Below are positions 12,433-57,979 of a stretch of 64,000 nucleotides of DNA, one piece after another. Source of the DNA: Candidatus Nanoarchaeia archaeon (GTDB lineage Archaea; Nanobdellota; Nanobdellia; SCGC-AAA011-G17; GW2011-AR17); assembly GCA_028706745.1 (NCBI GenBank), contig JAQTVM010000008.1:1-64000 (forward strand), in the 5' to 3' direction. Below the pieces are notes generated by a model. It saw nothing but the letters and a program-made list of their open reading frames with translations. It was not told the origin of the DNA and searched no databases. Both the position numbers and the translations under genes were made by a program. Numbering within the stretch: the first letter of the stretch is position 1; every line of letters starts with the position of its first letter.

Positions 12433-14940
12433 ATGGAACTGCTAAACCCCGACAACCTGACGCCTGCAATGAGGCAGTATGTTGAATTCAAGCAGACGCA
12501 TCCGGGATGCATTCTGCTGTTCAGGATGGGCGACTTCTATGAAACATTCTATGAAGATGCCGTTGCTGTCTCAAAAGCGCTGGAAATAACTCTTACAAGC
12601 AGGGGAGCGGGGGAGAAAAAAGCGCCGTTGGCGGGAATTCCATACCACGCTCTTGAGCCTTATCTTGCAAAGCTGGTGAGAAAGGGGTTCAAGGTTGCAA
12701 TCTGCGAGCAGATGGAGGACCCGAAGCAGGCAAAAGGATTAGTCAAGAGAGGGGTTGTGAGGATTGTCACTCCCGGCACTGTGATGGAAGACGCAATGCT
12801 TGACACAAAAAGCAACAATTACATAATGTCATTGTCTGTAAGCAATGAGAATTACTCAGCCGCTTTCTGCGACGCTTCCACAGGGGAGTTTTTTGTCACA
12901 GAAGGAAATGTAGCCGGCTTGCAGAACGAGATTGCAAGGTTCCAGCCTGTTGAGTGCGTAATACCTTTTTCACTTGCTGTAAATTCTGACTTGATGCAGA
13001 CGCTTCAGAAAAACGGATTGTTCATAACAAAATACGATGACAGGCATTACGGAAAGCACAGCGCAATGAATTACTTGGCAACACATTTTAGAGTTTCAAG
13101 CATGCAAAGCTTTGGAATAGGCGATAACAGCGAAGCGATAAGCCCTGCAGGCGCATTAATAAGATACCTGCAGGAAACGCAGATGAATGCCCTTCCCCAT
13201 ATAAACAAGATATCAACTGCAAAAAAAGAAGAGTTCATGCAGCTTGACAATGCGACAATAAGGAACCTTGAACTGATACAGAATATCAGGGACGGCACTT
13301 CAAAGGCAACCTTGCTTTCTATAATTGACAAGACACAGACTGCAATGGGCTCAAGGCTGATGAAGAAATGGATTAAGGAGCCTTTGCTTGACGTGAAAGA
13401 AATAATAAAAAGGCAGAACTCGGTTGAGCTGCTGAAAAGCAGTTCAATGCTAAGGGAAGAGGTTATGGCTGCCCTGGCAAGGATACTTGACTTTGAAAGA
13501 ATAATAAGCAGGGTGTCTGCGGGGATTGCAATGCCAAGGGAGCTTCTTGCGCTAAAGCAGTCATTGGAAAATGTTGCAGTGCTGAAGAGAGAGCTTTTGC
13601 ATTATGTTTCAAAGATGCTCGAGGACAAGGAAGAAAATACCCTGAGGGACGTGTACAGCTTTGATGATTTTTCAGAAGTTGCTGCGCTTATTTCAAATGC
13701 AATACTCCAAGAGCCTGCCTCATTGCCAAGAGAAGGCGGCGTGATAAACCCCGAATACAGCGAGGAGCTGAAACAGCTTTGCTCAATAAAATCAAATGCA
13801 AGGGAATTCATACGGAACCTTGAGGAAGAGGAAAGAAAGAAAACAGGAATCAAGAGTCTTAAGATAGGCTTCAACAGGGTTTTCGGTTATTACATTGACA
13901 TAACAAGGGCAAACCAGCATCTTGTCCCGAAAGAATACATAAGAAAGCAGACAACTGCAAGCGGCGAAAGGTTTGTGACTGAGGATTTGAAAAAGCAGGA
14001 AGAATTAATACTGAATGCAGAGGAAAAGAGCATAGCTCTTGAGCAGCAGATATACGGCAATCTCCTTTCTATTATCTCATTGTCTGCAGTAAAAATACAG
14101 GAAGCTGCAAGAAGGGTGGCTGTTGTTGATGTTTTATGCTCATTTGCAAACGCCGCAATTGAATACAACTATTCGCGCCCAAAGGTTGACAATTCAGGAA
14201 GCATACTTCTTTCTGATTCAAGGCATCCTGTGATTGAAAGAATACAGGCAGGATTTGTCCCAAATGACATCAGCGTGAAGAAAGGGGAATTGTGTGTTAT
14301 TACAGGTCCGAACATGGCGGGGAAAAGCACTGTGATGAGGCAGCTTGCATTGAATGTTTTAATGGCGCAGACAGGAAGCTTTGTTGCCTGTTCATCCGCA
14401 AAAATAGGGATTGCTGACAGGATTTTTACAAGAGTCGGGGCTTATGATGACTTGGCTTCAGGACAATCAACTTTCATGGTTGAAATGCTTGAAACTGCGA
14501 ATATCCTGAACAATGCAACTGCTGACAGCCTGATAATACTTGATGAAATAGGAAGGGGGACTTCAACATTTGACGGCGTTGCCATTGCATGGGCAATTGC
14601 AGAGCACATATATTCAAGGATGAAGGCAAGGACAATGTTCGCTACCCATTACCACGTAATGAACAAGCTGTCAGAGCAGCTGCCTAATGTCACGAATTAC
14701 AATATTGCTGTTAAGGAAGAGAATGGAATCATTGTGTTTTTGAGGAAACTTCTTTTGGGGGGCACTGACAAGAGCTACGGGATTCACGTTGCAAAGATTG
14801 CTGGAATGCCCAATGAACTGCTTGTCAGGGCAAACGAGATACAGCAGAAGCTTGTTGAAGAAGATGAGATGCTCAGGAAGCTGAATGCAAAGACGCACGT
14901 TGAGCAGAAGAAGCTGAAAGACATGGTGGACGTGGTTTAA
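12433..14940 (+). CDS. mutS: DNA mismatch repair ATPase MutS
   Basis: 835 aa, full-length MutS1. The mismatch-reading domain opens with MRQYVEFKQTHPG and has the F-Y-E motif in MGDFYETF; connector, lever and clamp domains follow; the ATPase has Walker A GPNMAGKST at about 625 and Walker B LDEIGRGTSTFDG at about 702, ending in a dimerisation helix. It detects base mismatches and recruits MutL. mutL starts the base after the mutS stop, so the two form an operon. Bacterial-type MutS1-MutL is absent from most archaea, so acquisition from bacteria is the usual explanation. Confidence 0.97.
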   Translation: MELLNPDNLTPAMRQYVEFKQTHPGCILLFRMGDFYETFYEDAVAVSKALEITLTSRGAGEKKAPLAGIPYHALEPYLAKLVRKGFKVAICEQMEDPKQAKGLVKRGVVRIVTPGTVMEDAMLDTKSNNYIMSLSVSNENYSAAFCDASTGEFFVTEGNVAGLQNEIARFQPVECVIPFSLAVNSDLMQTLQKNGLFITKYDDRHYGKHSAMNYLATHFRVSSMQSFGIGDNSEAISPAGALIRYLQETQMNALPHINKISTAKKEEFMQLDNATIRNLELIQNIRDGTSKATLLSIIDKTQTAMGSRLMKKWIKEPLLDVKEIIKRQNSVELLKSSSMLREEVMAALARILDFERIISRVSAGIAMPRELLALKQSLENVAVLKRELLHYVSKMLEDKEENTLRDVYSFDDFSEVAALISNAILQEPASLPREGGVINPEYSEELKQLCSIKSNAREFIRNLEEEERKKTGIKSLKIGFNRVFGYYIDITRANQHLVPKEYIRKQTTASGERFVTEDLKKQEELILNAEEKSIALEQQIYGNLLSIISLSAVKIQEAARRVAVVDVLCSFANAAIEYNYSRPKVDNSGSILLSDSRHPVIERIQAGFVPNDISVKKGELCVITGPNMAGKSTVMRQLALNVLMAQTGSFVACSSAKIGIADRIFTRVGAYDDLASGQSTFMVEMLETANILNNATADSLIILDEIGRGTSTFDGVAIAWAIAEHIYSRMKARTMFATHYHVMNKLSEQLPNVTNYNIAVKEENGIIVFLRKLLLGGTDKSYGIHVAKIAGMPNELLVRANEIQQKLVEEDEMLRKLNAKTHVEQKKLKDMVDVV

Positions 14941-16770
14941 ATGCAAATACAACTGCTTACAGAAGAATTAATCAACAAGATAGCTGCAGGAGAAGTAATT
15001 GAGCGCCCCGCCTCTGTTGTTAAGGAGCTTCTGGAGAATTCAATTGATGCAGGCGCATCTTTCATTGACATTGAGATAAAAGGATACGGCAAAGAGCTGA
15101 TTAAGGTTTCAGACAACGGCTCGGGAATGTCAAGAGAGGATGCGAAGCTTGCAATTGTAAGGCACGCGACAAGCAAGATATCTTCTGTGAATGACTTATT
15201 CTCAATTGCCACTTTGGGCTTCAGGGGAGAGGCGTTGGCTTCAATAGCAGCTGTTTCAAGAACAATAATCACGACAAGGACAAAAGATTCTGTCGAGGGG
15301 TTTTCAATTGAAGTTGAAGGCGGAAAGCTTGTTTCAGAGAAAACAGCCGGCTGTCCTGAAGGGACAACAGTTGAAGTGCATAACCTGTTCTTTAACACGC
15401 CCGCAAGAATGAAATTTCTCAAGCCTGACGCAATTGAATTGAAATCAATAGCAGACATTGTGACAAGGTATGCACTGATTTACACGCACATTGCATTCAG
15501 GCTTGCGCATAACGGGCATTCGCTTCTTTCAACCGCCGCAAGCACTGACATGATAAACAACATCACTTCTGTTTATGGAAAGGATACTGCAAAGCAGATG
15601 CTTTCAATTAATTTTAAGAATACTGTTGCGCAGGTTTCAGGATATGTGTCAAAGCCTTCGACATTGAAGAACGAGAGAAATTACCAGAGCTTTTATGTCA
15701 ATGGGAGATATGTGAAGGATGAAGTGATAACGCAGGCATTATATGATGCATACCACACTTTATTGTTTGTTAACAAGCACCCTGTTGCCGTGCTAAGCAT
15801 CAATCTTAACCCTTCATTTGTTGACGTGAATGTGCATCCCACGAAAGACAGGATTAAGTTCAGCAATCCAATCAAGGTTTATGAATCTGTGTTTGAGGCT
15901 ATACGGGAGACACTTAGAAATAATTCATTGGTTACTGATTATAGTGTAAGGGAAGAAAATGTTCCGATGTCAAGGTTTGGAAGCGCGCCTTCTTACCCTG
16001 CTCATGCTCCGGCTTATTCTTCATCACAAAATATCTTGCAAACAAATGCCTTTCAGCAAAATGCATTGCAAAATTCCGAACTACAAAAGGCAGCCGTAAT
16101 TCAATCTATTCCTTTATTTCAAAGCAAGGAAGTGCAGAATACAATTGCAAATGAACTTGTTAATCCGCATGAGAAAGTAACGCTTTCTAAACTGCCTGCA
16201 ATGAGAATACTGGGGCAGATTGCAAAAACTTATTTCCTTGCAGAAGCAGATGACGGATTCCTGCTTATTGACCAGCACGTTGTGCAGGAAAGGGCATTGT
16301 ATGAGAAGTTCATGGAGCAGTTCTCTTCAAGCAATGTTGCAAAACAGCAATTGGTGACTCCTCTTGTTTTGGAGATGTCTCCTGCTGATAACGCAGTTGT
16401 AATAGGGAAGATGGCTGAATTGTCTTCATTGGGATTTGAGGTTGAGCAGTTCGGGAACAATTCGTTTCTCCTCCGCACAGTGCCTGCTGTTTTTGGAAGA
16501 GTGCAGGCAAAGGATTTGTTTTATGAGGTTTTGGAAGAAATCTCTGAAAGCAGGAAGGATTCGATAAGCGCATTAACTGAATCAATTATAACAAGAATGG
16601 CTTGCAGGGCTTCAATAAAAGGAGGGGACGAATGCTCTGTTCCTGAAATAATTGCATTATTGAAAGAATTGGACAAATGCAAGAGCCCGTGGACGTGCCC
16701 GCACGGACGTCCTATTATTATTAAATTCTCAAAAGATGAGATAGAGAAGATGTTCAGGAGAAAGGGCTAG
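14941..16770 (+). CDS. mutL: DNA mismatch repair protein MutL, endonuclease type
   Basis: 609 aa. GHKL ATPase motifs: ENSIDAGAS, DNGSGM and GFRGEALASI; then a transducer domain and a Gln/Ser/Ala-rich linker (about 330-410). The C-terminal domain has DQHVVQERALYE, the DQHAx2Ex4E nuclease motif with Ala changed to Val, and CPHGRPI near the end. So this is a nicking MutL, as in bacteria without MutH. It starts immediately after mutS. Confidence 0.96.
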   Translation: MQIQLLTEELINKIAAGEVIERPASVVKELLENSIDAGASFIDIEIKGYGKELIKVSDNGSGMSREDAKLAIVRHATSKISSVNDLFSIATLGFRGEALASIAAVSRTIITTRTKDSVEGFSIEVEGGKLVSEKTAGCPEGTTVEVHNLFFNTPARMKFLKPDAIELKSIADIVTRYALIYTHIAFRLAHNGHSLLSTAASTDMINNITSVYGKDTAKQMLSINFKNTVAQVSGYVSKPSTLKNERNYQSFYVNGRYVKDEVITQALYDAYHTLLFVNKHPVAVLSINLNPSFVDVNVHPTKDRIKFSNPIKVYESVFEAIRETLRNNSLVTDYSVREENVPMSRFGSAPSYPAHAPAYSSSQNILQTNAFQQNALQNSELQKAAVIQSIPLFQSKEVQNTIANELVNPHEKVTLSKLPAMRILGQIAKTYFLAEADDGFLLIDQHVVQERALYEKFMEQFSSSNVAKQQLVTPLVLEMSPADNAVVIGKMAELSSLGFEVEQFGNNSFLLRTVPAVFGRVQAKDLFYEVLEEISESRKDSISALTESIITRMACRASIKGGDECSVPEIIALLKELDKCKSPWTCPHGRPIIIKFSKDEIEKMFRRKG

Positions 16771-27226: not shown

Positions 27227-28525
27227 TTAACGCGTCCCTTTTCTCCCCCAGTATTTTAGCGCTTCCATAAGTTCAGGGCATTTTTTTGCAGCTACTGCCA
27301 AATCAATGCCTTCCATATAAGCCTCAACAGCTTCCCTCATTGCTCTTGCCCCTGCATAGCTTCCGCCCGGATGCCCGTGAATTCCTCCGCCAATCTGAAG
27401 CATTATGTCAGTGCCGAGCTTGTCCATTACCTTATCAACAAGCAATGGGTGCAATCCGCCTGATGAAACAGGGAATACAGGTTTTGTGCCGAACCATTCT
27501 TGTGGCAGGGTATGGAGTTTCTCATTTGCTTCAATCTTCTCATCAACAATCTGGCTGTTCAAGTGCATAACCTCTTCCTTGCTTCCGACAAGCTTTCCCA
27601 CATTTGCAGTGCCTATATGCAATTGGTCAACTCCCAATAATCTTGCGCATTTTGCAACGCAGTTCATTGAAAAGCCGTGCGTTGGAACTCTTGTCATTGC
27701 TCCGTGCATCGCCCTGTGCGCGTGCAATGCTAATCCTAAATCTCCGCATATTTCCCTTACAGAAGAAACAGCTGCCCAGCCGGTTGTGATGATGTCAATC
27801 ATTGCATATTCCCCGCCCTGCTCTTTGATGAACTTGGCTCTTTTTTCCATCTCTTTCAAAGTGGGTCCTGTTATGTTAATCAAATAGCTTTTTTTCTCGC
27901 CTGTCTGCTTTTCAATCCTGTCCCTTACTTTCAGGGATTCCCTTACTCTTTTTTCAAACGGGTTAAATGCCTGATTGGAAAGATTTTCATCATCCTTCAA
28001 TAAGTCAAGCCCGCCTTCCCAAATCTGCCTTCCAACCTCAACGTGCTGGCTGGTAGTTAATCCGACTTTTGGCTTTGCAACAGAAAGCATTAACGGCCTG
28101 TCATAAACCTTGAATATGCTTCTTATGCCTTTTTTTCCGAATTTTGGTCCGGGAAATGATTTTACAATCTTTTTTGTGAATTGCATATCTTCCAATCTTA
28201 ATGCATCAACAGCCTTCATCCCAAATACATTCCCGGCGATTGAAGCAAGAATCTGGCTCATGTTTCCTTCTTCAAAATGCTCTTCTGGATATGCTATCTT
28301 AATCCATTCGCCTTTTGCCTCATACACTTTTGCAGCAACTGCCTTTACATTTTTGTAATTCATTGCAGCCATCGGGCTCCATGTGCCAACTGAGCTTTCA
28401 GCAGCTACCGCGCCCCATGCTCTTTTTGCAGAGCTCCACTTTGGAACTTTCACCCTGAAACTTGCAATTACATCATGAGAATCCGGCTTGTAATTCATGT
28501 CTATGAAATCTTCGTATCCTGCCAT
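27227..28525 (-). CDS. rbcL: RuBisCO large subunit, archaeal form III-like
   Basis: 432 aa. Catalytic residues all present: K151 in AKPKVGLT, the carbamylated Lys in LLKDDEN (177-180), HAHRAMH (268-274), loop-6 Lys in GKLVGS (311) and the SSGGLHP phosphate loop. Form III enzymes join CO2 to ribulose-1,5-bisphosphate made from nucleoside phosphates, giving two 3-phosphoglycerate. The other steps (AMP phosphorylase, R15P isomerase) are not in the window. Ribosome site AAGGAGCG and a TATA box precede it. Confidence 0.95.
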   Translation of the reverse strand: MAGYEDFIDMNYKPDSHDVIASFRVKVPKWSSAKRAWGAVAAESSVGTWSPMAAMNYKNVKAVAAKVYEAKGEWIKIAYPEEHFEEGNMSQILASIAGNVFGMKAVDALRLEDMQFTKKIVKSFPGPKFGKKGIRSIFKVYDRPLMLSVAKPKVGLTTSQHVEVGRQIWEGGLDLLKDDENLSNQAFNPFEKRVRESLKVRDRIEKQTGEKKSYLINITGPTLKEMEKRAKFIKEQGGEYAMIDIITTGWAAVSSVREICGDLGLALHAHRAMHGAMTRVPTHGFSMNCVAKCARLLGVDQLHIGTANVGKLVGSKEEVMHLNSQIVDEKIEANEKLHTLPQEWFGTKPVFPVSSGGLHPLLVDKVMDKLGTDIMLQIGGGIHGHPGGSYAGARAMREAVEAYMEGIDLAVAAKKCPELMEALKYWGRKGTR

Positions 28526-39881: not shown

Positions 39882-40199
39882 ATGAAAACAAACAAAAATA
39901 GCTTAACTGAAAAATTGCCTGAATGGGCGATGTTTTTTGGCAGTCTTATAGTCAGCCAGCCGCCAAAAGGATGGTTTTGCGAAAAGGAAATACGCTGCAA
40001 ATCTCCTGAATATCTATTTGAGCCAGACACAACTTATGACTCAGGCAAGATAAAGTTTGTGCCTGTTGACAGAAAACCTTATTTGGGGTTTAATGTGCCT
40101 GCCGGCGAGAGGGAATATGAATCTTATCTTGTTTTTAAGAACATTGAGCCTGATGTTGAAAAGTTTGAAAGAGAATTTAATGCGAGGTGCGGGTTATGA
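39882..40199 (+). CDS. small protein A of a paralogous operon
   Basis: 105 aa. Ends in KIKFVPVDRKPYLGF...YLVFKNIEPDVEKFEREF, a module that recurs in the 142-aa gene downstream (KIRFVPF...YLVFRKRKI), so the two are paralogs. A GGGGGT ribosome site and TATA-like GGTTTAAATAG lie upstream. Its stop overlaps the next micro-ORF (ATGA). Family unknown. Confidence 0.55.
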   Translation: MKTNKNSLTEKLPEWAMFFGSLIVSQPPKGWFCEKEIRCKSPEYLFEPDTTYDSGKIKFVPVDRKPYLGFNVPAGEREYESYLVFKNIEPDVEKFEREFNARCGL

Positions 40200-40291
40200 T
40201 TACAGGAAATCTTTCTGCTGGAAAGAAGTTTACTCTTGAGGAAGAGAAGCGCCGAAATGAAGAGAATGCGCTGGCAGGGGAGTATTACTAA
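40196..40291 (+). CDS. 31-aa micro-ORF within the operon
   Basis: ATGA overlap with the upstream stop, ends 10 bp before the next gene, which has its own GGTGA site. Sequence begins MITGNLSAGKKFTLEEEKRR; charged and helical. Support is by position only. Confidence 0.4.
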   Translation: MITGNLSAGKKFTLEEEKRRNEENALAGEYY

Positions 40292-40301
40292 GGTGAAAAA
40301 A

Positions 40302-40727
40302 ATGACTTCATACAAGCTTGTTACAGGGGAAATGCCGGAGAGATATACTCCGAAAAATTTCGGGCATTCTAATCTTGCAGAACTTTTGGCGACATATTGG
40401 AATAAGCTTGTCACTACTCAGGCGCCTTCTGAAGCAGAGTGGGAATGTGTTGATGCCATAAGGGACATGACGCCTGCGCACATGTATGTTCTTGCAGAGG
40501 ATAACGGCTTTGACAGGGAAAAAATAAGGTTTGTTCCTTTTACAGAAGGGTCGCGGCTTAAGTTTAGGGCTGGAACAGACAGCGAATATATTCGAATAAT
40601 GTTTGACCAGGGAGAGAAATCAGAGAAAGATACTTGCAACCACTACCTTGTTTTCAGGAAAAGAAAAATTGTTGATGAAGAAAGAATGCAGAAAATGGAG
40701 GAAGATATAGAGAATAAATACTGGTAA
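40302..40727 (+). CDS. small protein B, paralog of protein A
   Basis: 142 aa from ATG 40302 behind AAGGTGA; the longer track start would overlap the micro-ORF. The C-terminal half aligns with protein A around KIRFVPFTEG and HYLVFRKRK; the N-terminal half (YTPKNFGHSNLAELLATYWN) is its own. Followed 1 bp later by the methyltransferase gene. Confidence 0.55.
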   Translation: MTSYKLVTGEMPERYTPKNFGHSNLAELLATYWNKLVTTQAPSEAEWECVDAIRDMTPAHMYVLAEDNGFDREKIRFVPFTEGSRLKFRAGTDSEYIRIMFDQGEKSEKDTCNHYLVFRKRKIVDEERMQKMEEDIENKYW

Positions 40728-41524: not shown

Positions 41525-42010
41525 ATGAAAATGGAAATGGACAAACGGGAAATGCTCATAATCTCTGCATTAAGGCAGAACTGCAGGCAGAGCCTGACTG
41601 ACATGAGCAAGGAGACAAGAATTCCAATCTCGACAATACACGAGAGGATAAACTGCTATGACAGGACACTGATAAAGAAGCATACTGCGCTTATTGATTT
41701 TGCAAAGCTGGGCTTTAACACAAGGGCAAAAGTGCTTGTAAAGGTTGACAGGGAGCAGAGAAAGAAGCTGCAGGAATTCCTGAAAACGTGCAAAAACGTG
41801 AATACCCTGCTGAAAGTGAATAATGGGTTTGATTTTCTTGCAGACATGATCTTTCCGCACATAAAGGAGATGGAGGATTTTGTCGAGGGGCTGGAAAAGA
41901 AATTCAGGCTAATCAACAAGGAAGTGTTCTATGTCATTGACGAGCTGAAGATGGAGGAGTTTTTTGCAGACCCTTCACTTGTGCTTTTGGAGAATGAGCA
42001 GGATGCTTGA
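41525..42010 (+). CDS. Lrp/AsnC-family transcription regulator
   Basis: 161 aa from ATG 41525 (several nearby ATGs; the track start is TTG and gives an unrelated tail). An N-terminal HTH (MDKREMLIISALRQNCRQSL, SKETRIPISTIHERI) is followed by a C-terminal effector-type domain ending in an acidic helix. Three 9-bp repeats lie upstream. The peptidase-nucleotidyltransferase gene overlaps its 3' end, so the pair is coupled. Confidence 0.75.
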   Translation: MKMEMDKREMLIISALRQNCRQSLTDMSKETRIPISTIHERINCYDRTLIKKHTALIDFAKLGFNTRAKVLVKVDREQRKKLQEFLKTCKNVNTLLKVNNGFDFLADMIFPHIKEMEDFVEGLEKKFRLINKEVFYVIDELKMEEFFADPSLVLLENEQDA

Positions 42011-43109
42011 GGAAATAAGCTCTTACATTGAAGAAAGGTTTGGCATTTCTGTCAAAGAATCCCTGCTTTGCGCACATTCTGCAGGCGGATGGAATCAGTT
42101 TTCCCGGGAAGGCGGGTTTAACGCAGAAGGCGCATACCTTGTGAGAAGCAGGGAGGCGCACGTGAATTCTGATTCAGAATTTGCCTTGATAGACACTTTT
42201 CACGAATACTTCGGGCACGGGCTTTACACAGAACATTCAGTTTATGGGCGGAAACTTTATTCGCTTGAGCAGAAGCTTATGAAGGAGGAGAAAGAAGCAG
42301 GGATTTCTTCAAAGCAGGAGCTTGAGGCATTCAGGGAAAACAGCGGCACATGCAAACAAATAAGGGATTTTCAGGAAAAGACACTCGTTTCGTATGAAGG
42401 ATTTGCAATGTGGATGGAATGGTATCTTTCAATGCTTACAGGCAATACAGGAATCTACGAAAAAAAGGCATCATTAAGAAGCGGGAATGCAAAGGCATTA
42501 ACCTCCTCTTTCATTGAATTTTCAAAGCAGAATACTGACTATGCATTGCTTTATGCAAACGGCTTTCCAAAGCATTACAATATCGGAATACTTGGTGAGA
42601 TTGCAAGGAATATTTTCAGGAATGACTTAAGCTCAATTGATTTTGCGCTTGTGTATGGCTCCAGAAAGCCTTGCTCTGACATTGACTTGTTCATTGTGTC
42701 TGACAAAATACCCTGCTTTTTCACAGGATGGCTTGACGTGTATTCTGTTTCAAGGGAAAAGTTCAGCGAGCTGCTTGCAAAGCAGGACATCTCAATAACA
42801 GACGCTTTATGCTCAGGGGAATTGGTATACGGTGATAGCGCTTTTTTTCAAACTGCAAGAAACAATGCAATTGAATCTGCGATAACAAAAGAAGCTGTTG
42901 AATTCCATCTGAATCATTCAATAAAGGCAGGAGAGCTTTCTTTGAAATGCGAAAACCCAGATGAAAAAAGGAGTTCTGCAAGGTTCTCAGTGTCTTACAG
43001 GCTGAATGCGATTGAAATGGAACAGGGAAGAAAGCCGTTGACTCTTAAGGAGCTTGAGAAGAAGTATCCTGGTGAATTTAAGGCGTTTGAAAAGCCTTAT
43101 ATAGAATAA
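42003..43109 (+). CDS. HExxxH metallopeptidase-like domain fused to nucleotidyltransferase
   Basis: 368 aa. N-terminal domain: IDTFHEYFGHGLYTEHS, an HExxxH site like M49 (HELLGH) zinc peptidases, with a later Glu in YEGFAMWMEWY as possible third ligand. C-terminal domain: GSRKPCSDIDLFIVSD, the GSxxxxSDxDL motif of pol-beta minimal nucleotidyltransferases. Such a pairing is not one I know. Overlaps the Lrp-type gene by 8 bp. Confidence 0.72.
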   Translation: MLEEISSYIEERFGISVKESLLCAHSAGGWNQFSREGGFNAEGAYLVRSREAHVNSDSEFALIDTFHEYFGHGLYTEHSVYGRKLYSLEQKLMKEEKEAGISSKQELEAFRENSGTCKQIRDFQEKTLVSYEGFAMWMEWYLSMLTGNTGIYEKKASLRSGNAKALTSSFIEFSKQNTDYALLYANGFPKHYNIGILGEIARNIFRNDLSSIDFALVYGSRKPCSDIDLFIVSDKIPCFFTGWLDVYSVSREKFSELLAKQDISITDALCSGELVYGDSAFFQTARNNAIESAITKEAVEFHLNHSIKAGELSLKCENPDEKRSSARFSVSYRLNAIEMEQGRKPLTLKELEKKYPGEFKAFEKPYIE

Positions 43110-43299: not shown

Positions 43300-43917
43300 T
43301 TACTGCTCTTCAGTCTGCCACTCGCTTTCATCAACAGGCCTGAAAGGCGCCAAAGGAGCAGGGCATACTGCTGACATTCCAATCTCTGCCGTTGCAGTTC
43401 CCACGAGAGTTCTTGGCCTGTATTCAAATGTAAATATCCTGGTTATGCCTTCTTCATCCCTGTAGAAATATCCGTTTGTAGTGCATGCAGGGCTCCAGAC
43501 AATGCATTCTATTGAGCCGCCTTCTGCATCAGGGTTTAGCTCGGTGTCTATTGCTATGCTTTCCCTGAACCCGCCCCTGTTTTCAGAGTATAGCCCTGTT
43601 CTTTCGCCGTCAGGGGACACATAGTTTATGAAAAATTCATATTCATACCCTTCAAGGCAGTTGTTGTCAATGTTCGGCTTGCAAATTAATCTTAAGTTCT
43701 CGCCGTAAGCATGCTCTCCCCTATAATCATAAGAATAGTTTCTTGCTTCCATGGTCAAGTTAATTGTTCTTATTCTTTCTGAAAATTCTGATTCAATGCT
43801 CACTTGCGGCTCGTTAAGAAGATAAGTGTCAAGGCAGTCCTGCTGTATGCATCCTGAGGAAGCAATGCCTGCTGCCAATGCCGCGCCCGTAAGAATTGAT
43901 TTGAATCTTGTTGCCAT
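43300..43917 (-). CDS. secreted lipoprotein of unknown family
   Basis: About 205 aa from ATG 43917. Signal with lipobox ASSGC, then a beta-rich extracellular domain with eight Cys (DCLDTYL, LICKPN, NCLEGYE, ECIVWSPACTTNG, AVCPAP) likely in disulfides. A GGGGGT site lies about 12 nt upstream. Not recognised. Confidence 0.6.
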   Translation of the reverse strand: MATRFKSILTGAALAAGIASSGCIQQDCLDTYLLNEPQVSIESEFSERIRTINLTMEARNYSYDYRGEHAYGENLRLICKPNIDNNCLEGYEYEFFINYVSPDGERTGLYSENRGGFRESIAIDTELNPDAEGGSIECIVWSPACTTNGYFYRDEEGITRIFTFEYRPRTLVGTATAEIGMSAVCPAPLAPFRPVDESEWQTEEQ

Positions 43918-43984
43918 TTTAGTGTAATACCCCCTATACAAAGTGATATATGGGGGGTATATAAATGTATCTAAAGAGAACTAT

Positions 43985-56372: not shown

Positions 56373-57023
56373 TTAAAACTGCGAAATGTCCGGCGATAAA
56401 ACAGGCGTATTGTTCATTCCGAGAATTGTTTCTATCTCCTTTTGCACTTTCATATTTCCCTCATAGCTCCCTTCAATTATGCCTTTCCTGAATTCCGCAT
56501 ACTCAATGATTCTTCTGGACAGCATTTCATCTATTGAGAGTATCTTGTTCTTCGGGTCTATCCTCAGCCATCTTCCCTTCAGCTCATCCACTTTATTGAA
56601 ATCAGAAAATTTTTTAATTAAGTTAAGCAATGACTCTAAGCTATTAAATCTGCAAACAGCAATATTCTCTCCCGTCTTAACAGAATTGCCAGTAATCGCA
56701 TAGCGCAGTGAGGGGATTATAATCGTCCTGAGCTCTTCTGCAGTTTCAGCAGGCCATCCGTCTTCCATCATTGTTTCATACATTCTTATGCGCAAATGCA
56801 GATAGCATTTGGGGAAAACCAAAGCAGCTTTCCTGCGGACAGAGTCATACTCCTCTCCAATCTCATTCTTCAGGAGTTCAGCGCCTTCCTTGTTTGCGTC
56901 CAATACCCCGAGCAAGTCAGAAAGCTCCTTCCTGTCGGGATTCTCAGCAGAGAGAATTGCTCTTGCCGCTTCATAAGCCGCCTTTGCAACGCCGTACTCG
57001 CTTATCCCTTTAAGGCTTGTCAT
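56373..57023 (-). CDS. 216-aa helical protein, third gene of operon
   Basis: Opens SLKGISEYGVAKAAYEAA, closely like the middle gene (LKGISEYGGVKAAQ), then GAELLKNEIGEEYDSV matches GAEMLRRENQEEFDKV. So the two share an N-terminal module and then differ. Starts in a 4-bp overlap with the middle gene. All helical; unknown function. Confidence 0.6.
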   Translation of the reverse strand: MTSLKGISEYGVAKAAYEAARAILSAENPDRKELSDLLGVLDANKEGAELLKNEIGEEYDSVRRKAALVFPKCYLHLRIRMYETMMEDGWPAETAEELRTIIIPSLRYAITGNSVKTGENIAVCRFNSLESLLNLIKKFSDFNKVDELKGRWLRIDPKNKILSIDEMLSRRIIEYAEFRKGIIEGSYEGNMKVQKEIETILGMNNTPVLSPDISQF

Positions 57024-57979
57024 ATTGCCTCCAGCCGCGCGCCTTCACGGACTGCGAAGTGCAAAGCAATCAGGGCATTAGAATATGTCCATAATCCTGC
57101 ATTTCCAACGCCTGCTTTATACAATTCTCCATCTCTTCCTATTCTGGATTCAATTCCCTCAATAATTCTGTCTGCATTATCCCTTTTTTCAGTAACTGCA
57201 AAATACAAAGCCATCACGGCATTAGTGTATGTCCATAATCTTGCATCATCCCTGCCTGCTTTATACAATTCTCCGTCTCTTCCGATTCTGGATTCAATTC
57301 CTGCAATAATCCTTTCCGCGTTATCTTTTTTTCCTGTGGCAGCAAAATACAAAGCCATTATGGCATTAGGGACTGTACATATTTTTGCATTTCCAACGCT
57401 TGTTTTATACAATTCCCCGTCTCTTCCGATTCTGGATTCAATTCCCGCAATAATCCTTTCAGCATTATCTTTTTTTCCCGTAGCGGCAAAATACAAAGCC
57501 ATCAGGGCAGTATCATCTGTCCATAATTCTGCATTTCCAACGCCTACTTTATACAATTCCCCGTCTCTTCCGATTCTGGATTCAATTCCCTCAATAATCC
57601 TTTCCGCGTTATCTTTTTTTCCTGTGGCGGCAAAATACAAAGCCAATAGAGCATTAGCATATGTCCATAATTCTGCATTTCCAACGCCGCATTTATACAA
57701 TTCCCCGTTTCTTCCAATCCTTGTCTCAATTGAGTCTATGATATACTCTGATTTCCTGAATCTATGGGGGTTATTTTCAGCCAATACTTCATCAGCAGCG
57801 TTCTGCACTTTGTCAAACTCTTCCTGGTTCTCCCTTCTGAGCATCTCAGCTCCTGCCTCGTGTCCTGAGATGTATGCCCTTAAGTCAGCAGCTCTTTCCA
57901 GAATCTCCTTTAATTCATCCTGCGCAGCCTTCACTCCGCCGTATTCGCTTATTCCCTTCAGGCTTTTTTCCATTTTCAC
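57020..57979 (-). CDS. protein with five 48-aa tandem repeats
   Basis: 319 aa. The N-terminal module (about 1-75) is shared with the neighbour. Then five copies of a 48-residue unit with GRDGELYK, VGNAELWT and ALMALYFAATGKKDNAERII, almost identical in sequence; the DNA repeats are 144 bp. Two helices per unit and Gly-x-LY turns suggest an alpha/alpha toroid or solenoid. ATGA overlaps on both sides. Confidence 0.7.
   Translation of the reverse strand: MKMEKSLKGISEYGGVKAAQDELKEILERAADLRAYISGHEAGAEMLRRENQEEFDKVQNAADEVLAENNPHRFRKSEYIIDSIETRIGRNGELYKCGVGNAELWTYANALLALYFAATGKKDNAERIIEGIESRIGRDGELYKVGVGNAELWTDDTALMALYFAATGKKDNAERIIAGIESRIGRDGELYKTSVGNAKICTVPNAIMALYFAATGKKDNAERIIAGIESRIGRDGELYKAGRDDARLWTYTNAVMALYFAVTEKRDNADRIIEGIESRIGRDGELYKAGVGNAGLWTYSNALIALHFAVREGARLEAI

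Follow-up and report, generated by a model that had tools for sequence, protein, structure and literature searches.

A fused metallopeptidase-like and nucleotidyltransferase protein of nanoarchaeotal archaea and the modular small-gene cassettes found beside its relatives

The fused protein and its two halves

The window analysed here is a stretch of 64,000 nucleotides from Candidatus Nanoarchaeia archaeon (assembly GCA_028706745.1, contig JAQTVM010000008.1), in which one gene, P0001, encodes a protein of 368 residues carrying both an HEYFGHG and a GSRKPCSDIDL motif (Table 1). A preliminary description, made from the sequence, had read this frame as an HExxxH-type peptidase-like domain fused to a pol-beta nucleotidyltransferase (NTase), and this observation is confirmed by the family to which P0001 belongs, here called c0, since both motifs are kept across 31 full-length relatives. 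H67, E68, G71, H72, E77, E132, W137, E139, S220, D226 and D245 are invariant in all 31 proteins, D228 is an aspartate in 29 of them and G219 a glycine in 30. The ratio of nonsynonymous to synonymous substitution rates between P0001 and its nearest relative is about 0.12-0.13 in each half, an approximate value, with synonymous sites near saturation. Given that both halves are under purifying selection and that the motifs are conserved, the motifs are not due to chance, and both sites look maintained and active. Judged from its sequence, P0001 thus truly joins an HExxGH metallopeptidase-like domain to a pol-beta NTase having all three metal aspartates, the complete set being D226, D228 and D245.

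Table 1. Features of the P0001 locus, in window coordinates.
Feature	Position	Strand	Basis
P0001 (c0), HExxGH metallopeptidase-like domain and pol-beta NTase, 368 residues	42003..43109	+	open frame, 31 full-length relatives aligned
N-terminal peptidase-like domain, residues 1-192	42003..42578	+	AlphaFold2, domain alone
HEYFGH motif (H67, E68, G71, H72)	42201..42218	+	invariant 31/31; within one predicted helix
E132-G-F-A-M-W-M-E139	42396..42419	+	E132, W137, E139 31/31; in helix 115-146
NTase active site G219-S220, D226-x-D228, D245	42657..42737	+	alignment of relatives, PF18765 Polbeta
C-terminal half, residues 193-368, NTase fold and helical domain	42579..43106	+	Foldseek, profile match
Lrp/AsnC-type regulator P0002	41525..42010	+	HTH_24 E 3e-5, AsnC_trans_reg E 1.8e-4; directly upstream of c0

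The AlphaFold2 model of full-length P0001, computed from 31 sequences, has a mean predicted local distance difference test score (pLDDT) of 94.9 and a predicted template modelling score of 0.88, and the N-terminal part modelled alone reaches a pLDDT of 96.2. The predicted N-terminal topology is helix-strand-helix-strand-strand, followed by the motif helix (residues 61-78) and then by the long helix that bears E132 and E139, and a gluzincin-type layout, with the HExxGH helix and a downstream glutamate (E132) on a separate helix, is present in the model. H67 and H72 are proposed to be zinc ligands, with E68 as the catalytic residue and E132 as the third ligand; E139 is a second conserved glutamate.

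The motif had been likened to the zinc site of the M49 family, and at the level of the pattern the resemblance stands, HExxGH being present in 31 of 31 members and M49 dipeptidyl peptidase III combining, as c0 does, a six-residue HExxGH zinc motif with a glutamate on a later helix. Membership in M49, on the other hand, is rejected, since neither sequence nor fold supports it: PF03571 matches none of the 31 members, the PDB profiles give no M49 match, and none is found among the 50 fold matches listed. Dipeptidyl peptidase III also has about 700 residues, whereas the c0 domain has 190. The strands, the motif helix and the glutamate helix are shared with gluzincins and minimal zincins, and selecase, anthrax lethal factor, IrrE and an M48-like peptidase are among the top fold matches, all weak and non-significant (E ≥ 1.1); these families typically carry a five-residue HExxH motif, whereas that of c0 has six residues. 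The peptidase half is a probable zinc peptidase, best called, from its predicted structure, an unclassified zincin-like peptidase with a six-residue motif.

The assignment of GSRKPCSDIDL to a pol-beta NTase is borne out by the GS pair and the three metal aspartates, by PF18765 (Polbeta), which matches 18 of the 31 full-length members (best E 4.3e-7; Pfam gives only a weak pol-beta NTase match on P0001 itself, E 0.003), and by the fold. It is not a minimal NTase, as had been suggested, but a full NTase that continues into a helical domain at its C-terminus (residues ~279-362 in the AlphaFold2 model), closest to HalB and to kanamycin NTase. In Foldseek searches with the C-terminal half, HalB of the Hailong anti-phage defence (PDB 9dbh, 9dbi, 9dbj) is the best fold match (9dbj, E 1.1e-5; TM-score 0.5 on HalB), with a pol-beta NTase and a similar helical domain, and a weak profile match (E 0.08) covers both the NTase and the helices. 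Identity to HalB is, however, 16%, and whereas HalB is a separate protein acting on the effector HalA, in c0 the NTase and a peptidase form a single protein, which is linked to variable small proteins. No HalA-type effector was found beside c0, where the neighbours are the small genes described below and those scanned gave no Pfam or PADLOC effector match. The aminoglycoside (kanamycin) nucleotidyltransferase ANT(4') (PDB 6un8, E 1e-4; also 6p01) likewise joins an NTase to a helical domain, but confers resistance to a small molecule and has neither a peptidase nor a cassette. Nor does the c0 NTase fit the MNT-HEPN type, in which an NTase standing alone is paired with a HEPN gene: it is fused to a peptidase, the helical domain is present, and the scanned proteins of the window and the relatives matched no HEPN family.

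Distribution of the family and the cassette beside it

Of the 371 genomes sampled from the phylum, 30 matched the c0 family in a profile search, and a profile scan of one genome per species, across ~85,000 species, gave 34 c0 loci, where an earlier single-sequence scan of the same kind had given none. The fusion noticed in the window is therefore found in other genomes too, with 34 loci recovered and 31 full-length relatives aligned. Almost all of the loci carry DPANN labels, with Woesearchaeota, Pacearchaeota and Nanoarchaeota as the main groups; one is labelled Diapherotrites and one 'bacterium', the latter being the same contig as a same-family genome in our sample. No c0 relatives were found in viral contigs, phages or plasmids, and an origin of c0 from phages or plasmids was rejected on these grounds.

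At the fetched loci, to which all statements on neighbouring genes refer, the genes around c0 cluster into recurrent small families. One of these, c1, encodes a conserved leader of ~40 residues followed by a variable C-terminal end of 55-75 residues. The leader has the consensus LEx[ML]...P...Y..xDLExLSAxALY[ST], with the dialects M.SQ.LEQMLE..P..GQTRMY.TIDxYT.GTTALY and M.Q.LE.MM.YQP....TY.VVDLESLSASALYS, and is common to 35 distinct c1 sequences with at least six types of C-terminal end, which carry invariant polar residues of their own (e.g. D-H-FK-DRY-N-Y-GH). The c1 gene adjoins c0 in 25 of the 34 loci, with a partner gene after c1, and most of the loci lacking it are truncated at the end of a contig, lie on deep branches or come from the window's own clade. 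The linkage is also seen from the side of the leader: its profile matched 15 of the 371 genomes, 14 of them with c0 (hypergeometric P 2.5e-16), and in the fifteenth a c0 remnant lies next to the leader gene.

Two further loci deserve mention. The second c0 of one genome is split into two frames (L061, 9952-11105) and is still followed by c1 and a partner of family c2. In genome G029, c0 adjoins a protein of ~400 residues with its own HELGHA motif (L033, 1-1206), a metallopeptidase candidate and possibly an effector.

Module exchange and a possible effector-partner system

The family of the partner gene follows the type of c1 end. Ends of the form H[DE][AT]FK.DRY[DE]N occur with partner family c4, H[LI]N..-NIHI ends with c5 or c20, HxH...SYEAAM ends with the helical c2 or c32, IHHD ends with c6 and FHPDG-type ends with c15, with one exception (L073). 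Since these end types were drawn up by eye, the relationships were also assessed with an objective Mantel test on all pairwise alignment scores. The C-terminus correlates with the partner (r = 0.74, 0/5000 permutations), also given c0 (partial r = 0.75), and not with c0 (r = 0.04); the leader correlates with c0 (r = 0.71, 0/5000 permutations) and not with the C-terminus (r = 0.07). Proteins of the c0 family that score 75-80% of their self-alignment can have unrelated modules, and distant ones can share a module; on the c0 tree the module types are scattered, requiring 23 changes where shuffled types require 25.8 on average. In one locus (L057), alternative pairs of c1 and partner stand in tandem, their leaders near-identical and their ends different. 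Among the partners, a weak relationship links families c4 and c5 (hhalign E 7e-5, probability 63%). A pairing of basic toxins with acidic partners was also considered, and is not general.

As far as the sequences tell, the covariation of c1 end and partner, independent of c0, is the pattern of polymorphic toxin-immunity exchange. Like the polymorphic toxin systems, the cassette has a constant N-terminal part, swappable C-terminal domains, adjacent cognate partners, tandem modules and a processing peptidase (Zhang et al. 2012, PMC3482391). It differs from them in that the constant part is a leader of ~40 residues and not a trafficking domain, in that no known toxin, immunity or secretion family was matched, in that the peptidase resides in a protein of its own, joined to an NTase, and in its occurrence, so far, in DPANN archaea only. 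The cassette thus works like a polymorphic toxin system without two of the usual marks, a known toxin domain (looked for and not found) and a visible secretion route. Classical systems of this kind have been reported to be rare in archaea, where most immunity superfamilies are absent (PMC3482391).

We slightly favour, with a probability of roughly 0.55, the reading that P0001 belongs to a fused metallopeptidase-NTase family that serves, in nanoarchaeotal (DPANN) archaea, a system resembling polymorphic toxin-immunity systems, with c0 as its dedicated, leader-directed maturase. The conserved active sites, the linkage to c1, the swapping of modules and the co-inheritance of leader and enzyme are seen in the data and support it. 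In this model c1 would be a small effector, made of the shared leader and one of several unrelated tiny C-terminal domains, and the gene after it would encode the matching partner, presumably protecting the producer. The c0 protein would recognise the shared leader, its zinc site would cleave c1 near the leader end (around ALY/SG) and release the effector domain, and its NTase domain would either transfer a nucleotide to the effector or make a small nucleotide that gates the peptidase. A shared processing enzyme is suggested because c0 must meet every type of effector, and the part that the effectors share is the leader, which is inherited with c0. Zinc binding, cleavage, nucleotidyl transfer, toxicity, immunity and export are activities that we infer for the cassette.

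Several observations weigh against this reading. The peptidase half has no significant match among PDB folds (best E 1.1, selecase). There is no evident Sec signal in the c1 leader, and no export gene recurs beside c1. The c1 ends and the partners find no match in Pfam, NCBIfam, PADLOC, PHROGs or PDB profiles, and tblastn searches of bacterial plasmids with two of the C-terminal types gave chance-level matches only. The correlation of leader and c0 is weak within the Pacearchaeota-type set (r 0.32, 382/5000) and may reflect joint vertical inheritance, not recognition. Finally, P0001 and the other c0 copies of the window's clade have no c1 adjacent, and the c1-like reading of a gene beside the window genome's second c0 (see below) draws on gene order and a short tail.

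The similarity of the NTase half to HalB also brings to mind an intracellular defence or abortive-infection switch, in which the NTase, like HalB in Hailong, would make a nucleotide signal that holds the fused peptidase off until infection removes the signal, the c1 leader is cut and a suicide effector is freed, with the partner as a brake. A precedent exists in the Clover NTase (CloB), which makes a nucleotide product that restrains its effector (PMC12265719), and the cassette of the second c0 of the window genome abuts genes for Vsr, a DNA cytosine methyltransferase and a possible restriction enzyme. Swappable modules that are independent of the enzyme are, however, typical of intermicrobial conflict and not of known nucleotide-signalling defence, the PADLOC models gave only a weak NTase match (PDC-M05A, E 0.016), and c0 relatives are missing from the viral contigs, phages and plasmids searched. 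We therefore consider such a switch unlikely, though the most plausible of the alternatives.

The complete NTase site could instead point to an MNT-like antitoxin, as could the weak profile matches, which include kanamycin NTase and MNT antitoxins from MNT-HEPN pairs, with the NTase neutralising the c1 effector by nucleotidylation, the peptidase removing the leader or the modified end, and the partner acting as a second regulator. A universal antitoxin in c0 would nevertheless be redundant, as each effector type already has another gene that covaries with it, which makes this explanation improbable. We give similarly little credence to a maturation akin to that of ribosomally synthesized and post-translationally modified peptides, by which c1 would be a precursor turned by c0, as leader peptidase and nucleotidylating enzyme, into a nucleotide-peptide antibiotic as in microcin C, with the partner conferring self-resistance. 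The short precursor with its conserved leader and variable end, the co-inheritance of leader and enzyme and the fused NTase would all suit such a pathway; the ends, however, with 55-75 residues and often several invariant polar positions, are more like small folded domains than core peptides, and no other maturation or export genes recur at the loci.

Returning to the leader-directed maturase, its identity with a described system was sought in several ways. No library among Pfam, NCBIfam, PADLOC, PHROGs and PDB profiles names the peptidase domain, c1 or the partners, and a known toxin or immunity identity for c1 and its partners was rejected, as no library family matches. The literature search, which had a 2019 mBio review of archaeal polymorphic toxins outside its coverage, returned no description of such a gene set; within the literature searched, and with this key review aside, the system thus appears to be undescribed, as the preliminary description had thought possible. 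Attachment to other cells is the presumed way of life of DPANN archaea. If the maturase model is true, these archaea would possess a weapon or a self-recognition device of their own in the form of a compact cassette, with swappable effector and partner and a dedicated peptidase-NTase, several new families of small effectors would be at hand, and NTase chemistry would be linked to leader processing. A bolder version, which we advance only tentatively, is that of a new archaeal effector-immunity class, in which one fused enzyme matures exchangeable mini-effectors via their shared leader, cleaving them and then nucleotidylating or nucleotide-gating them, and which ultra-small episymbiotic archaea use against rivals or hosts.

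The window copy, its neighbours and its paralogue

In the window, the 3' end of the Lrp-type gene P0002 overlaps the start of P0001 by 8 nucleotides. The same overlap occurs in L045, the two genes are adjacent in L046, and Lrp also adjoins c0 in reverse order in L075 and L078. The preliminary description had taken the fusion to be coupled to this regulator, and the coupling holds as a local, lineage-specific overlap but not as a conserved partnership: among 18 genomes of the family, 16 carry the Lrp gene as a single-copy core gene, several of these lacking c0; in the sole congener without c0 the gene after Lrp is an unrelated one, and c0 and Lrp are on different contigs in G012 and G015. A dedicated Lrp partnership of c0 was rejected for this reason. 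It had also been suggested that the fusion protein is itself a dual-enzyme toxin or sensor, which could be under the control of its Lrp neighbour, as the overlap and the adjacency in either order would allow. Lrp is, however, found without c0 beside it and most c0 genes neighbour c1 and its partner, not Lrp, so that we regard this as the least credible of the explanations. Toxin involvement is still likely, but the candidate toxin is the small c1 protein found next to c0 in the relatives, not the fusion enzyme.

The window genome holds a second c0, 43% identical to P0001 (G000:C26:18663-19766), and this paralogue branches on the c0 tree as sister to the window's Lrp-linked clade. It is followed by a gene of 250 residues and then by a helical one of 175 residues. 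The first has no significant leader match and ends in PWEK, a type of tail seen in only five of 4157 distinct frames, namely three leader-bearing c1 and the genes after c0 in L009/L077 and L011; the second weakly resembles partner family c16 (E 7e-6, single comparison). By this reading of gene order and similarity, the window genome keeps one probable cassette, that of the paralogue, and one solo enzyme, P0001. The window copy is probably derived, acting in trans (e.g. on the cassette of its paralogue) or put to other use. The paralogue's cassette abuts a restriction-modification island (L098, 10159-12733), in which a Vsr-type endonuclease, a DNA cytosine methyltransferase and a possible restriction-enzyme gene were recognised by eye.

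Around P0001 itself, a short lipoprotein-like gene (ASSGCIQQDC; 43300-43941) is kept downstream of c0 in the window's clade (cluster c10: L001, L045, L046). On the other side, two adjacent small genes (39882-40727) share a C-terminal IxFVP...EYxxxLVF, suggesting a duplicated unknown family, and were not seen beside the L045 and L046 relatives. Elsewhere in the window, MutS-like and MutL-like genes are adjacent (by eye; 12433-16770), probably of bacterial origin in this DPANN genome, and a protein of near-identical repeats of ~43 residues (NAERIIEGIESRIGRDGELYK...; 57020-57979) is adjoined by a related protein at 56373-57023. A RuBisCO large-subunit-like gene was recognised by eye at 27227-28525; form III RuBisCO would be common in DPANN archaea.
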